A stretch of DNA of 16,272 bases. It comes from Thermoplasmatota archaeon. GTDB taxonomy: Archaea > Thermoplasmatota > Thermoplasmata > RBG-16-68-12 > JAGMCJ01. The stretch spans positions 1-16,272 of the forward strand of contig JAJISH010000161.1 in NCBI GenBank assembly GCA_022848825.1, in the 5' to 3' direction. Under the pieces are notes generated by a model. It was not told where the DNA came from. It did no database searches and saw only the letters and a list, made by a program, of their open reading frames with translations. A program made the translations under genes and the position numbers. Shown piece after piece: positions 9,559 through 15,292 of the stretch (its first letter is position 1; every line of letters starts with the position of its first letter).

Positions 9559-9636
9559 ACCGGGCAATCGCTCGGCCGAGGGAGAGGAACGCCCGAGGAC
9601 ATAGTCGAAATCAACCCCTGCACCGAAGACGGATTC

Positions 9637-10545
9637 GTGACTCTCGAAGCTAGATTCGACCTGAGCAAGATATCAGGATGCACATTCGGCGAGTACATCG
9701 ACCCGAAACAGATGTGCCATCTGATGCGTACCATCGAGTTCTTCGACCGCTTCAGGTGCTCAGATGAGATGGGCTATGCCTACGGGGAATCTGGCGGCAG
9801 ACGCATTCACGCCTTTCAAGGCGGGAAGATAATCGTGCGCAGAGCAGAGGATGAGGCGGACGCTCGACGGATCCTCAGAGCACTCGCGCGCGTCATGTGG
9901 GGGTCCGTGAAGTGCGATTGTGAGCATGCGATGGTCCACTGTCTCTCAGGTGCGTGCGATGACTGCCTGGATGATGTCTGCGGGTGTCAGCTCGAACCGC
10001 CAATGGAAGGCAGGGAGTCTGAAGGACGGCTCAAGGGATGGGAGGTTCTGGACTTCGCCCAATCGCTGGAACACGGCGACACGTACGGCTCCGCCGCTCA
10101 CAATCTCAGACAGGCGGGGGAGAAGCTGGCAGAGCTCACCGAAATGCTCTCCCGTGGGAAGGAGGGTCTGGCGAGGCTGGAGAACGAGGTCAGGGCGCAC
10201 TGCGTCGAGGCTGGACGGCTGGCAACATCCTTCATCATCGAGACCGACAACGGCTTTCATGCGGGCTTGGGCTTCCTCCTCCATGGGGTAGCTCTTAACA
10301 TGCTCACTGGCCTGGAGGCGCTCATCGACCTCAGCGGGAAGAATGGCCACGAGACCCTCACGGGCATTCCCGAGTTCGTCTCCGAATGTCTCACGACCTT
10401 CTTCGAATCCGAGCACGAGAACCTCGAGAAGCTCACGCGTGATCGCGAAAGGATTCTGAGCAGTGTTTCTGATGAGGACGTGATCATGATCATGGACGCT
10501 GGCTATCACACGGCGAGAATCCTGGGAAAGAGCTTTCCCAAGTGA
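9637..10545 (+). CDS. Unrecognised Cys-rich protein with seven-cysteine cluster and helical C-terminus
   Basis: 302 residues from a GTG at 9637; I do not recognise the family. The N-terminal part (about 1-92) is a mixed alpha/beta domain with C15, C27 and C41 and a strand-turn pattern GRRIHAFQGGKIIVRRA. It is followed by seven cysteines in 25 residues at 93, 95, 102, 107, 110, 115 and 117 (C-X-C-X6-C-X4-C-X2-C-X4-C-X-C, also with H97 and H101). That spacing suits an Fe-S cluster or zinc site. Residues about 140-302 are mostly helical with coiled-coil-like stretches (AGEKLAELTEMLSRGKEGL; ENLEKLTRDRERILSSV). No signal peptide or TM segment is seen, so it is probably cytoplasmic. The stop lies 44 bp before the iscS-like gene on the same strand, suggesting a functional pair. 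The frame stays open and protein-like upstream of the GTG without a canonical start, and no ribosome site precedes the GTG. Confidence 0.8.
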   Translation: MTLEARFDLSKISGCTFGEYIDPKQMCHLMRTIEFFDRFRCSDEMGYAYGESGGRRIHAFQGGKIIVRRAEDEADARRILRALARVMWGSVKCDCEHAMVHCLSGACDDCLDDVCGCQLEPPMEGRESEGRLKGWEVLDFAQSLEHGDTYGSAAHNLRQAGEKLAELTEMLSRGKEGLARLENEVRAHCVEAGRLATSFIIETDNGFHAGLGFLLHGVALNMLTGLEALIDLSGKNGHETLTGIPEFVSECLTTFFESEHENLEKLTRDRERILSSVSDEDVIMIMDAGYHTARILGKSFPK

Positions 10546-10589: not shown

Positions 10590-11762
10590 ATGAGGCGAGT
10601 CTATCTGGATTATGCTGCCGCGTCTCCCGTCGATCCTCGCGTGATGGAGGAGATGCTGCCTTATTTCACTGAGAAATACGGTAACCCTTCGAGCGTCTAT
10701 TCACTGGGTTTCGAAGCGAACTCGGCGGTCGAGGAGGCCCGTGAGAGGGTGGCGAACCTCATTGGGGCGGAAGCGAGGGAGATCATATTCACCTCCACTG
10801 GCACAGAGTCGATCAATCTAGCGCTCAAGGGCATGGCCCAGAAGAGGAAGAGCGATGGGAATCACGTGGTCACCTCAAGCATCGAGCACCCCGCTGCCCT
10901 CTCAGCGGTCGATGAGCTCGAGAGGGTCGGATTCTCGGTCTCTCGTCTTCCCGTGGATGACAGCGCAATCGTGGATGTGGACAAGGTAAGGGATGCGATA
11001 ACGGACAAGACGATACTCATCTCGGTGATGTCCGCGAACAACGAGGTCGGCGCCATCCAGCCGGTCAGAGAGATTGGGGACATCGCAAGGGAGAAGGGGA
11101 TTCCGTTTCACACAGATGCGGTCGCTGCAGCGGGAAAGATACCGATAGACGTGACCAAGGACAATATCGACCTGCTATCGTTATCGTCACAGGACCTGTA
11201 TGGCCCAAAGGGCGTGGCGGCTCTGTACGTGAGAAAGGGAACGTCGATCGTGCCCCTCCTCCATGGCGGGCGTCAAGAGAGGAAGCTCCGTCCGGGAACC
11301 GAGAGCGTCCCGCTCATCGTGGGCATGGGAAAGGCCGCCGAGATTGCGGCGCAGGAGATGGGCGTCGAATCGGAAAGGTTGAGCAAGATGAGAGACCAGC
11401 TGGTCAAGGGCCTGACGTCGACCGTGAAGGAGTGCCACCTGAATGGCAGGCTCGAGAAGAGGCTTCCGAACAACGCGAACCTCCGGCTCAGCTACATAGA
11501 AGGGGAATCAATCGTTCTGAACCTGGACATGAAGGGGATTCAGGCCGCAACGGGCTCCGCGTGCACGTCCGAGACGCTCGAGCCGTCACATGTACTCACC
11601 GCGATGGGAATCCCGCCAGAACACGCGCACGGGTCGATCGCGTTCACCCTGGGCAGATGGACGAAGGGGGACGATATCGACTACGTAATCGAGACGCTCC
11701 CGCCGATAGTGAAGGAACTCAGGGCAATCTCCCCGATGGTCCCCGAGGGCTGGACGGACTAG
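10590..11762 (+). CDS. iscS: NifS/IscS-family protein lacking the PLP-binding lysine
   Basis: 390 residues, full length for a class V aminotransferase-fold cysteine desulfurase. Conserved parts: LDYAA near the N-terminus, GNPSS at 31-35, the phosphate-binding TSTGTESINLALKG at 68-81, H100 (in IEHPA, the ring-stacking His), N150/N151 in SANNEVGAIQ, D176 in HTDA, and the persulfide Cys C325 in the loop TGSACTSETLEPSHVL. Against E. coli IscS (from memory), the segment SxHK becomes S199-S-Q201-D202 followed by LYGPKG. The Schiff-base Lys is therefore Asp and the preceding His is Gln. The pyridine-oxygen-contacting Gln in HVDATQ is A179. Without the lysine, normal PLP-dependent desulfuration is not expected. 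Archaeoglobus fulgidus IscS is a known homologue with Asp at this position. It probably acts as a scaffold or persulfide relay, perhaps with the Cys-rich protein upstream. No iscU is in the window. The stop overlaps the convergent gene by 3 bp. Confidence 0.9.
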   Translation: MRRVYLDYAAASPVDPRVMEEMLPYFTEKYGNPSSVYSLGFEANSAVEEARERVANLIGAEAREIIFTSTGTESINLALKGMAQKRKSDGNHVVTSSIEHPAALSAVDELERVGFSVSRLPVDDSAIVDVDKVRDAITDKTILISVMSANNEVGAIQPVREIGDIAREKGIPFHTDAVAAAGKIPIDVTKDNIDLLSLSSQDLYGPKGVAALYVRKGTSIVPLLHGGRQERKLRPGTESVPLIVGMGKAAEIAAQEMGVESERLSKMRDQLVKGLTSTVKECHLNGRLEKRLPNNANLRLSYIEGESIVLNLDMKGIQAATGSACTSETLEPSHVLTAMGIPPEHAHGSIAFTLGRWTKGDDIDYVIETLPPIVKELRAISPMVPEGWTD

Positions 11763-12901
11763 CGTTTACCGCCAGAAATCGCCCGCTCAAGATCCTCGAT
11801 TATGTCCTCGGAGTTCTCGATACCGATCGACAGGCGGATCAGGTTGTCAGGGATTCCGGATTCCCTTCTCTCCTTCGCGCTGATGTACTTGTGTGAGGTC
11901 TCCAGTGGAAGGGATGCGAGGCTCTCCACTCCTCCCAAGCTCGAGGCCAGTTTTATCAGATCGAATCTCCTGGAAACCTGCCTTGCGTCTTTCGCTGCCC
12001 GCCCCACCTCAAAGCTGACCATCCCGCCAAAGCCCTCCATCTGTCTCTTTGCCAGCGCATGTTGCCCGAAGGACCTGAGGCCAGGATAGTGGACCTTTCC
12101 GACTTGTTTCATGTCTTCCAGGGCTTCCGCCACGGCCATCCCGTTCTCATTGTGGACCTTCATCCTGAGGTCCAAGGTCTTCATCCCTCTCGCAATGAGG
12201 AAGGCGGCAAGCGGATCGGTTGACCCGCCGAAGAGCCTCCTTCTCTGCTCGATACTCTCAATCCACTCCTCCGAGGACACGGCGAATCCTGCGACGACGT
12301 CACTGTGTCCATTGAGGTACTTTGATGCGCTGTGAACGACAACATCGGCGCCCAGTTCCAGGGGCCTCTGGTTGATCGGCGTGGCGAAGGTGTTATCCAC
12401 AACAAGTATGGCAGAGTTCCGATGAGCCACCTCGGCGATCTTCTTCATGTCGAGGACCCTCAGTAGCGGGTTCGTCGGAGTCTCGATGAGGATGGCCCTC
12501 GTCTCCTCCGTGAGAGCGTCTTCAATGGCGGAAGAGTCCTCGCAATCCACAAGGCTCACCCCGATCCCGTGGCGGGGAAGTTCCTTGTCCAAGAGGACAC
12601 GGGTCCCTCCATACAGGTCCGGGATCGAGACGAGGTGGTCTCCCTTTTCGAGAACGGAGAGGAGCGTGGCGGTTATGGCCGCCATGCCCGATGAGAAGAC
12701 GAGACATCCGTCCCCGCCCTCGAGCGCGGCGAGCTTGCTCTCCGCGGCCTCTATCGTGGGGTTGGACAGCCTCGTGTAGACGTATTCCTTCTGCCATTCG
12801 GGGTAATAGAACGTGGACGTCTGGTATATCGGTGTGACAAGAGACCCAGTCGCGTCCTTCCTCTCCCCCGCGTGCACACAAACCGTGGAATTGCCTGACA
12901 T
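11759..12901 (-). CDS. Cys/Met-metabolism PLP enzyme (cystathionine gamma-lyase/gamma-synthase family)
   Basis: 380 residues, normal length for this fold-type I PLP family. Visible signatures: YTRLSNPT at 42-49 (Tyr and Arg that contact PLP phosphate from the partner subunit), FSSGMAAI at 69-76, the ring-stacking Tyr in DLYGGT (Y97), D169 in VVDNTFATP, and the intact Schiff-base Lys K194 in HSASKYLNGHSD. SLGGVESLASLP at 321-332 is the substrate-carboxylate loop. Members make cystathionine, split it to cysteine, or release sulfide or methanethiol; sequence alone does not decide between these. It converges on the lysine-less iscS homologue, so a role in cysteine or sulfide supply fits. A TATA-like element at 12931-12940 lies about 30 bp before the ATG and predicts a short or absent leader. 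The methyltransferase gene ends 47 bp upstream on the same strand. Confidence 0.93.
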   Translation of the reverse strand: MSGNSTVCVHAGERKDATGSLVTPIYQTSTFYYPEWQKEYVYTRLSNPTIEAAESKLAALEGGDGCLVFSSGMAAITATLLSVLEKGDHLVSIPDLYGGTRVLLDKELPRHGIGVSLVDCEDSSAIEDALTEETRAILIETPTNPLLRVLDMKKIAEVAHRNSAILVVDNTFATPINQRPLELGADVVVHSASKYLNGHSDVVAGFAVSSEEWIESIEQRRRLFGGSTDPLAAFLIARGMKTLDLRMKVHNENGMAVAEALEDMKQVGKVHYPGLRSFGQHALAKRQMEGFGGMVSFEVGRAAKDARQVSRRFDLIKLASSLGGVESLASLPLETSHKYISAKERRESGIPDNLIRLSIGIENSEDIIEDLERAISGGKR

Positions 12902-12948: not shown

Positions 12949-13437
12949 TCAATCCAGGGCGCCCTCTAGCCTGAGGAGGAACCTCTTCAACCTCGCTCCA
13001 CCGCCGAAGTGGCCGATCGAGCCATCGCTCCTGACCACCCTGTGGCAGGGGATGACTATCGGTGTGCGGTTGTTCCCGACCGCGTTCCCGACGGCTCTGT
13101 ACGCTCTCGGTCTGCCCACCATCTCAGCGACCTGCTTGTAGCTTCTCACCTCACCCGAAGGGATGCTCGCCACGGCCTCGAGCACGTCTCTCTGGAACTC
13201 GGTGTAACCGGAAAGATCCAGGCTCAACCTGCCGAAATTGACGGAATCGCCGTTGAAGTAGTCCTTGAGAAGCCCCTTTGTCTCCTCCAGCAGCTCCGAG
13301 CTGTCTCCCTCGGCAAGAGGATCTCCGTCAAGCAGTATCTCGTAGAGGCGGTCATCGCTCTCGAAGATCTGTAGGCAACCATTGGAAGTGAAGAACAGCT
13401 TCGTCTTCATCATCAATGTCAATGCAGTGCCATACAT
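12949..13437 (-). CDS. ogt: Methylated-DNA--protein-cysteine methyltransferase (O6-alkylguanine repair)
   Basis: 162-residue suicide repair protein that moves O6-alkyl groups from guanine to its own cysteine. The active site IPCHRVVRSDG is present with acceptor C131. The helix-turn-helix with the base-flipping Arg reads RAYRAVGNAVGNN at 111-123, and the entry helix FQRDVLEAVASIPSGEV at 81-97 is typical. The N-terminal domain (about 1-75) is short and diverged, as is common in archaeal forms. The ATG at 13437 has minus-strand GGAGG at 13448-13452, ten bases upstream. ATGs at codons 9 and 10 are possible later starts that would trim a hydrophobic octapeptide. It is divergent from the Trx-CcdA fusion gene and leads toward the Cys/Met enzyme 47 bp downstream. 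Confidence 0.93.
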   Translation of the reverse strand: MYGTALTLMMKTKLFFTSNGCLQIFESDDRLYEILLDGDPLAEGDSSELLEETKGLLKDYFNGDSVNFGRLSLDLSGYTEFQRDVLEAVASIPSGEVRSYKQVAEMVGRPRAYRAVGNAVGNNRTPIVIPCHRVVRSDGSIGHFGGGARLKRFLLRLEGALD

Positions 13438-13516: not shown

Positions 13517-15292
13517 GTGATGTTGATACACAGATGTAGTCGTCATCTTGCAGGGATCTCGTTGCTCCTAATCGGGGCCCTGATATTCTCCCCTCTTCCT
13601 GCAAAGGCGGAACTCATACTCGACGTATCGCATTCGCCAGAGGTTCCGCTTCCTGGTGAGACAGTCAATGTGACAGTCAGAGTGGCCGATCCTTCGAACA
13701 TCTCCTTTGTGGAGATCACCTGGTGCTTTCGCGATTCGGGATCGTGTTATCCGAGCGATGTGTACTACGGAGGGAACGACACCTATTGGAGTGACATCGG
13801 TGGAAAAGGGACCATCATCAACGGTACCGTGATCGGATACAACGTCACCGTTGAGAACAAGACGGGGCACAGGGACACTTACCCAGAGGGGACCCAGTAC
13901 GTCGACATCACCTACATAGGCCCTTCCCCTCCGGCGAAACCCGCACCTCCGCTGATCACTCTCGAACTCGTGCTTGTCGAAGCCCTTCTCATAGGCATCA
14001 CAGTGGCCCTGCTAGGCATCTTGGCATGGAGGAAGATGAATGGCCTGGAGACGAGCAAGGTGGCTGCCATGGGGATTGTCATCCTCATCATCCTGGCCAT
14101 TGTCTACGGAGCCGTGACAATCCTCACTCGGCCCACTGAGGTCGAGATCGCCAAGGATTTCCAGGCCATCGATACAGACGGTCGCTCCTTCAACCTCACC
14201 GACTTCCGCGGGGAGATCGTGGTCCTCGATTTCATGTCAATCAGCTGTGGGGGCTGTGAGATCATCGCCGGGACGATTATGGACGACGTCTACTCCCATT
14301 TCGACGAATCGGAACTCGAGGTGATATCGATAGATGTGAGCGTTGCCGATGATCTCGATTCTCTTAGGGCATTCAAAGAGGACAAGGGATATCCCTGGCG
14401 GATGGCCATGGATCCTGGCGGTCTCGTAAACGACTATGCCGTGAGTTCCCTTCCAACGCTAGTGATAATCGACAAAGAGGGGTACGCGGTCAAGGTGGTC
14501 ACGGATGCCTACACCTCCGCGAGCAGCATGCGGGGCATGATCGACGATGCTCTGGCGGGGAGATCGCAAGCCATAGGAATCCAGGCGGTGGGCGGTATCC
14601 TCCTCGCAGTCTTCGCGGGATTCGCCACCTTCTTCTCGCCGTGCTCTTTCCCGATGCTCCCGGGGTTCGTGGCGTACTATCTGTCCGCAGAAGCGGAGCA
14701 AGAGAAGAAAAGCACACTCAAAGTGCTCGCCAGCGGGCTCGTCGCGGGCATAGGAATCATCCTCGTCTTCCTTGTCATAGGGTTCGCCTGGATAGCGGCG
14801 GGAACGGCTGCCAACGTGGAGGAGTACACGCCTGTTCTGGGACCAATCGTTGGGGCGGTCCTGATCGCCCTGGGATTGCTGATGTTCACGAACCTCCAGT
14901 ACCACGCTCTGCTGAGGCCGTTCACCCGACTTAAAGAGGCGATAACGAAGGGGAAGAGCAAGGAGACCGGAGGTTACTACCCGAAGCTCTTCGGCTACGG
15001 CGTCGGGTACGGGGCCGCGGCGTCAGCCTGCACCGCCCCCCTCTTCATAGCCGTGCTCGCGCAGTCATCCATAACAGGGGGTCCGACCGAGAGCCTGTTC
15101 ATCCTCCTCGTGTTCTCCCTCGTGATCGTGCTCCTGATGGTCGCTATCACGTTCATGCTCTCTGCCTTTGGTCAGGAAAGCGTGAGGAAGCTCAGCCAGT
15201 ACACGGACCTCATCAAGAAAGTGAGCGCGGTCGTGCTCATAGCCGTGGGCGTCTATCTGATATACTACTACTTCACAAGCCACATCATTTAG
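13517..15292 (+). CDS. Fusion of extracellular beta domain, thioredoxin domain and CcdA/DsbD-type thiol transporter
   Basis: 591 residues numbered from GTG at 13517; the next codon, ATG at 13520, is an equally good start. Residues about 10-31 are a signal peptide (PAKA then EL). Residues 32-140 are an Ig-like beta domain with C70 and C77 and six N-X-S/T sequons (51, 61, 87, 102, 109, 114), so it is extracellular. TM segments follow at about 147-171 and 181-203, with a basic loop between. A TlpA/AhpC-like thioredoxin domain (about 207-350) has active site CGGC (244-247) and the cis-Pro loop LPT (P313). The C-terminal 352-586 is a six-TM CcdA module with one Cys in its TM1 (C376, FFSPCSFPMLPG) and one in its TM4 (C505, ASACTAP), the pair that shuttles electrons across the membrane in CcdA and DsbD. 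One chain could thus carry electrons from cytoplasmic thioredoxin to the outer domain. The stop overlaps the convergent acyl-CoA synthetase gene by 8 bp. Confidence 0.9.
   Translation: MMLIHRCSRHLAGISLLLIGALIFSPLPAKAELILDVSHSPEVPLPGETVNVTVRVADPSNISFVEITWCFRDSGSCYPSDVYYGGNDTYWSDIGGKGTIINGTVIGYNVTVENKTGHRDTYPEGTQYVDITYIGPSPPAKPAPPLITLELVLVEALLIGITVALLGILAWRKMNGLETSKVAAMGIVILIILAIVYGAVTILTRPTEVEIAKDFQAIDTDGRSFNLTDFRGEIVVLDFMSISCGGCEIIAGTIMDDVYSHFDESELEVISIDVSVADDLDSLRAFKEDKGYPWRMAMDPGGLVNDYAVSSLPTLVIIDKEGYAVKVVTDAYTSASSMRGMIDDALAGRSQAIGIQAVGGILLAVFAGFATFFSPCSFPMLPGFVAYYLSAEAEQEKKSTLKVLASGLVAGIGIILVFLVIGFAWIAAGTAANVEEYTPVLGPIVGAVLIALGLLMFTNLQYHALLRPFTRLKEAITKGKSKETGGYYPKLFGYGVGYGAAASACTAPLFIAVLAQSSITGGPTESLFILLVFSLVIVLLMVAITFMLSAFGQESVRKLSQYTDLIKKVSAVVLIAVGVYLIYYYFTSHII

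Follow-up and report, generated by a model that had tools for sequence, protein, structure and literature searches.

We propose that the IscS homologue encoded in an archaeal window (the whole 16,272-nucleotide stretch of DNA analysed here) is probably a non-desulfurase IscS that aids cluster building on IscU with sulfur obtained from elsewhere, and that it forms a derived branch linked to a six-cysteine protein, U302; sequence and gene order together point to this reading. In its favor are the joint alteration of three active-site residues, the grouping of the altered proteins in one clade, the retention of Cys328, the dN/dS ratio, the linkage of relatives to sulfur carriers, the spread of U302, and the absence of a SufB/D match in the genomes concerned. 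The window contig (C70) belongs to a 1.96 Mb assembly of 453 contigs that is 89% complete. The gene and its informative residues are as follows.

10590..11762, + strand: Lys-less IscS of the Q-D subtype, 390 aa (ORF, Pfam, NCBIfam, PDB match, AF2)
11184..11195, + strand: S199-S200-Q201-D202, replacing the desulfurase S-x-H-K (codons and alignment)
11124..11126, + strand: A179, replacing the Gln of E. coli Q183 (codons and alignment)
11562..11564, + strand: C325, the persulfide Cys, kept (E. coli C328; codons and alignment)
11271..11273, + strand: R228 (E. coli G234), a marker of the Q-D/E subclade (column comparison)

The product of this ORF is collinear with E. coli and A. fulgidus IscS across its full length, matches Pfam Aminotran_5 (4.6e-76), has A. 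fulgidus IscS (4eb5) as its top PDB sequence match, and yields an AF2 model with a pLDDT of 87.8. It also passes TIGR03402, the NCBIfam NifS equivalog (537.0 bits against a cut-off of 530.75), though the lysine is absent. From E. coli IscS to the window protein, five residues are unchanged (T76=T72, H104=H100, D180=D176, S203=S199, and C328=C325) and four are altered (Q183=A179, G204=S200, H205=Q201, and K206=D202). Among the features that define an IscS/NifS enzyme, the PLP-binding Lys is replaced by D202 and the PLP-site His205 and Gln183 by Q201 and A179; the mobile-loop persulfide Cys328 is retained as C325. The initial annotation of this DNA described the SSQD site and A179, with H100, D176, and C325 retained, and the codons and the alignment to E. 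coli IscS bear it out; the altered active site stands as described, although the feature had been started at 11127, and the A179 codon falls three bases earlier.

With A. fulgidus-type IscS the protein shares an acidic residue at K206 together with Ala at Q183 (D202 and A179), as well as membership in a clade with 4eb5 (support 100/100, trait columns omitted), but not the Asn of 4eb5 at H205, where the window has Q201 and its subtype has Gln in 30/30 sequences. That losing Lys, His, and Gln together might set the protein apart from A. fulgidus IscS had been suggested earlier; this is not supported, as 4eb5 has Ala, Asn, and Asp there, and the idea of a triad unique to the window was rejected on the same ground.

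We compared 326 distinct sequences comprising the window protein, E. coli IscS, 4eb5, two sets of 120 database proteins, and locus ORFs; each set consists of the 120 top-ranked proteins out of about 8000 scored, and the counts describe near relatives rather than the whole family. Lys is present at 206 in 67/326 sequences, and 67/67 of these retain Gln183 and His205 as well. The N-D class accounts for 223/326 sequences (Ala at 183 in 219/223) and the Q-D/E class for 30/326 (21 with Asp and nine with Glu; Ala at 183 in 30/30), with six sequences outside these three classes. C328 is kept in 223/223 N-D and 30/30 Q-D/E sequences, and H104, T76, and D180 are each kept in 222/223 and 30/30, respectively. 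The Lys, His, and Gln changes co-occur beyond chance, and they are maintained. Q-D/E sequences are further marked by Arg at E. coli position 234 (28/30) and Pro at 241 (30/30), with N-D sequences having Gly at 234 in 223/223. In one of the 120-protein sets, all 120 database proteins have the N-D site. Several proteins named cysteine desulfurase NifS (e.g., P0001, P0002, P0010-P0012, P0020, and P0022) lack the catalytic Lys, and such names should be used with caution.

In a first tree of 64 rows, thinned from the 326 by identity and with the trait columns and SufS-like rows omitted, all 35 Lys-less D/E/Q rows, including 4eb5, form one clade (100/100), and 17 window-type rows form a subclade (100/99.7; one row has Pro instead of Gln). 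N-D as a single clade was not rejected in this tree (AU p 0.44); in a second tree, the Q-D/E subclade groups with some N-D rows (98/90). The subclade is present in two Thermoplasmata families, f1 and f2, and the f2 copies are 56-61% identical to the window IscS, with the same three positions altered and Glu replacing Asp. The distinct archaeal subfamily suggested by the initial annotation is recovered in part: the Q-D/E branch exists, but it is nested within the bigger Lys-less clade, and that clade may be wider than Archaea, as it includes N-D proteins with Deltaproteobacteria, WOR-3, and Zixibacteria names, which are metagenome names. Four proteins so named (P0175, P0196, P0200, and P0252) have an N-D site and 76% identity to a second Lys-less IscS of the window's own genome, encoded on contig C340; either inter-domain transfer or mis-binned contigs would account for them. 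Overall, the window protein belongs to the altered IscS type already known from A. fulgidus, and what is specific here is the Q-D/E subclade.

Thermoplasmata also harbor a second Lys-less lineage, the His type, in which position 183 (E. coli numbering) is His, K206 is replaced by Thr, Ala, Val, Leu, or Pro, and H104 is replaced by Asp in 12 loci and by Arg in two (n = 14 loci: L028, L030, L031, L215, L247, L248, L250, L256, L257, L262, L263, and L267-L269). The best tree separates the two Lys-less lineages (100/99 and 99/96). Their origin as a single clade was not rejected (AU p 0.34), and for this reason we do not claim that they arose independently.

We sorted 147 IscS-family ORFs of the class by triad and neighbors; they include loci L027-L031 and one extra ORF found adjoining L215, and G051:C58 and G042:C68 were left out. 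TusA and/or DsrE were counted as upstream if their genes lay no more than 1 kb before IscS in the same orientation; within the class, only loci with 600 bp or more of preceding sequence entered these counts. These carriers precede 21/22 N-D/N-Q Lys-less IscS genes and 0/94 Lys-bearing ones, and the sole N-D miss, L027, has N runs immediately upstream of the match. They also precede the His-type IscS in 12/14 loci; L215 encodes a Lys-bearing IscS, then tusA and dsrE, and then a second IscS of the His type. The contrast is given as raw counts, Fisher's test having been set aside because it ignores relatedness, and the carrier profiles were made from Lys-less loci, a possible bias, yet they also detected the distant His-type pairs. 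Outside the class but in the same phylum, DsrE and/or TusA lie upstream in 28/28 Lys-less loci (two with less than 600 bp), and iscU lies downstream in 27/28. These loci (27 with the triad A-N-D and one with A-S-A) were the top matches when an N-D IscS served as query, and hence contain no Lys-bearing control; throughout, gene order was sampled within one phylum and from often fragmented genomes. The TusA CPxP cysteine is present in 33/33 aligned rows and the DsrE cysteine in 27/37, the other ten being partial hits gapped there (L215 is counted twice in both). Within the class, iscU lies downstream of IscS in 77/96 Lys-bearing, 10/23 N-D/N-Q, 13/13 His-type, and 0/10 window-subtype cases.

The window subtype departs from this tusA-dsrE-iscS-iscU arrangement. 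TusA and/or DsrE are upstream at 0/10 of its loci, and U302 is found there instead, directly upstream of IscS, at 8/10. The conserved neighborhood in the window consists of the following genes.

9586..10545, + strand: U302, a six-Cys protein directly upstream of IscS (ORF, synteny, model)
11759..12901, - strand: PLP enzyme of the cystathionine gamma-synthase/lyase family, convergent with IscS (Pfam Cys_Met_Meta_PP 2e-137, synteny)
12949..13437, - strand: O6-methylguanine-DNA methyltransferase-like conserved neighbor (domain match, synteny)
13517..15292, + strand: thioredoxin/DsbD-like membrane protein, conserved neighbor (domain match, synteny)

The six conserved cysteines of U302 follow the pattern CxCx6Cx4CxxCx4C. 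Its homology starts at 9586, and the first in-frame start codon following a stop is at 9637. The window's U302 has no Pfam or NCBIfam match above cut-off and no convincing PDB sequence match (best E 0.066); its predicted structure resembles TBP in the N-terminal part and PhoU in the C-terminal part. U302 occurs in 12/400 genomes of the class, namely 10/10 of those that carry the window subtype plus two more, and one scan of viral contigs with a single degenerate pattern found no relative. In genome G060, one of the two that lack the window subtype, L166 5073-9065 encodes a thiI-like gene, an HTH gene, a U302-like gene with a PF04060 Fe-S domain, iscU, and a Lys-bearing sufS-like gene, possibly a sulfur-transfer operon containing an undescribed protein. 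In the single-contig genome G018, U302 lies in two pieces 1.66 Mb apart (L057 13295-13609 and L170 6144-7175), one of which reaches into an N stretch; this reflects either rearrangement or misassembly. The neighboring PLP enzyme is assigned to its family rather than to a sub-function, with scores below cut-off in all 25 families displayed out of 63 NCBIfam families.

The carriers themselves were not lost along with the linkage, since TusA is present in 10/10 window-subtype genomes and a weak DsrE match in 9/10. In the window's own genome, C340 encodes a tusA-iscS(AND)-iscU operon containing the second Lys-less IscS. A second tusA adjoins a weak dsrE match at G000:C249:1664-2241, apart from any IscS seen, and a similar pair lies side by side in 9/10 f1/f2 genomes.

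Two IscU proteins are encoded in this genome, one adjoining the C340 IscS and the other on C137. The latter groups with an IscU of the five f2 genomes (93/86), and those genomes, which are 76-94% complete, show no IscS-like match at E <= 1e-60 other than the window subtype; two of the f2 genomes, G014 and G016, have an additional, more distant NifU_N protein. Proteins sharing at least 78% identity with the C137 IscU were found in 8/400 genomes of the class, each of which has the window subtype (next best 73%), and the two subtype genomes that lack one at this identity are 76 and 83% complete. The window IscS likely pairs with the C137 IscU, although shared f1/f2 ancestry could also explain the pattern. 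The SufB/D core was found in 0/10 f1/f2 genomes with the window subtype (completeness 76-95%; controls 14/14 positive). In these genomes, then, IscU is the recognized scaffold and the IscS-like proteins seen are all Lys-less. A Lys-bearing SufS-like enzyme is present in 8/10, with only pieces in G003 and none in G018. Sulfur could come from sulfide, TusA/DsrE, the SufS-like enzyme, or the neighboring Cys/Met PLP enzyme.

In the mechanism that we propose, an A. fulgidus-type Lys-less IscS would be unable to form the internal aldimine, so that cysteine desulfuration by the window IscS would very probably be absent. By analogy with the role reported for A. fulgidus IscS, the non-desulfurase role put forward in the initial annotation gains support. 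The IscS fold and mobile cysteine, which sequence and model indicate are retained, would most likely dock an IscU, probably the C137 paralogue; C325 would either take up and pass on sulfur or hold the growing cluster, and the sulfur would come from a source other than the PLP chemistry of the protein itself. In the parent clade, the TusA/DsrE pair encoded just upstream would be the likely donor; the gene order is observed but does not by itself demonstrate the direction of sulfur flow. In the window branch, where the linkage is gone, the Cys-rich U302 takes the upstream place and may supply sulfur, iron, or electrons, or accept the cluster. Several observations count against this reading: the window gene adjoins neither tusA/dsrE nor iscU (0/10 of the subtype); the SufS-like enzyme of 8/10 genomes may mean that cysteine is still the source; the carriers persist in the subtype genomes despite the missing linkage; and the residues that E. 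coli IscS requires for TusA binding are not conserved together (W45->F, E49->A/S/T, and D52->E in the subtype), and these positions vary in other IscS classes too.

A credible but rather unlikely alternative is that the protein acts as a passive scaffold, with C325 serving as the fourth ligand for an IscU cluster built from free sulfide, without any relay. The altered site matches 4eb5, this role was proposed for A. fulgidus IscS in the cited part of PMC7585200, sulfide can supply methanogen clusters according to the cited parts of PMC7585200 and PMC12192291, and no SufB/D match was found in the ten genomes. However, a passive scaffold leaves the TusA/DsrE linkage of nearly all other examined Lys-less relatives unexplained.

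It is improbable that the protein is still a PLP enzyme, with PLP bound non-covalently and Asp/Glu202 serving as the base, whether to desulfurate cysteine or in some other reaction. The subtype does keep H100, T72, D176, and T237 as well as the LGR-motif Arg, and the window protein retains S199. Yet Lys, His, and Gln are all substituted, and the S203 position (E. coli numbering), a phosphate contact, is Ala or Gly in 20/30 Q-D/E sequences; in addition, A. fulgidus IscS, with Asp in place of the Lys, is reported inactive in the cited part of PMC7585200. We find it quite improbable, likewise, that the protein is a regulatory or structural partner that joins the C340 paralogue in mixed dimers or keeps IscU from the Lys-bearing enzyme. 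Two Lys-less paralogues coexist in G000, G001, G003, and G004, but the subtype seems paralogue-independent in the five f2 genomes where it is the only IscS-like match.

Finally, a decaying pseudogene or sequencing error, for which no supporting point was found, is extremely improbable and was rejected: the gene is full length, dN/dS against three congeners is 0.08-0.13, and the three positions are also altered in other assemblies and in f2. This ratio indicates purifying selection and agrees with the earlier suggestion that the conserved loops around the altered cofactor site are selected rather than decaying. As for sequencing error specifically, loci L008-L011 of other assemblies (99, 98, 83, and 83% identity) and database proteins P0001-P0008 repeat the Ala at 183 together with sites of the SQD or ASQD type, and this recurrence, in near-identical alleles among others, makes an error very unlikely. 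Synonymous divergence of IscS between G000 and G001 (window 10590-11762 against L055 8255-9427) is 0.70, relative to 0.13-0.30 for six further window genes, as if a diverged allele had been gained by exchange in one lineage.

Beyond the window, we tentatively suggest that Lys-less IscS could be the hub of a desulfurase-free ISC pathway (tusA-dsrE-iscS-iscU) in which DsrE and TusA would pass sulfur to the cysteine of IscS, which would hand it to IscU; the His type shares this gene order, and in the window branch U302 would have replaced the TusA/DsrE linkage. The sulfur source for the Lys-less A. fulgidus IscS is left open in the published account as cited, and gene order supplies concrete donor candidates: TusA, DsrE, and, in the window branch, U302. 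It also pinpoints lineages where the only scaffold recognized in this analysis operates alongside Lys-less IscS proteins, and this opens the way to testing directly how sulfur enters the Fe-S clusters of anaerobes. A link between tusA-dsrE and Lys-less IscS was not found in the cited portions of the literature on these carriers and IscS, although it may already be published; a text search of PMC8351635 gave no occurrence of IscS.

Among known systems, the closest is A. fulgidus IscS (PDB 4eb5, 4eb7, and 4hvk; minimal ISC, or MIS, kind), whose residues at the three positions are Ala, Asn, and Asp and which is described in the cited part of PMC7585200 as lacking desulfurase activity and contributing a cysteine as ligand to the cluster on IscU. 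The window protein differs in having Gln in place of Asn at the His position, Arg at 234, and Pro at 241, in lacking an adjoining iscU, and in sharing its genome with a second Lys-less IscS. Methanosarcina acetivorans IscS1, part of one of three iscSU pairs, is also said to lack the catalytic Lys and is proposed to act as in A. fulgidus (PMC7585200, as cited), while the minimal ISC system is described with a cysteine desulfurase in the cited part of PMC12192291. For the TusA/DsrE carriers of Metallosphaera cuprina, the cited portion of the account names Hdr-like and dihydrolipoamide dehydrogenase neighbors and no IscS. Lastly, E. coli IscS, which has separate binding sites for IscU and TusA (PMC2854127, as cited), shares its fold and Cys loop with the window protein but has Lys206. 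The E. coli enzyme hands sulfur to TusA; in the Lys-less clade, gene order suggests the opposite direction, and the proposed pathway, if true, would reverse the E. coli flow.
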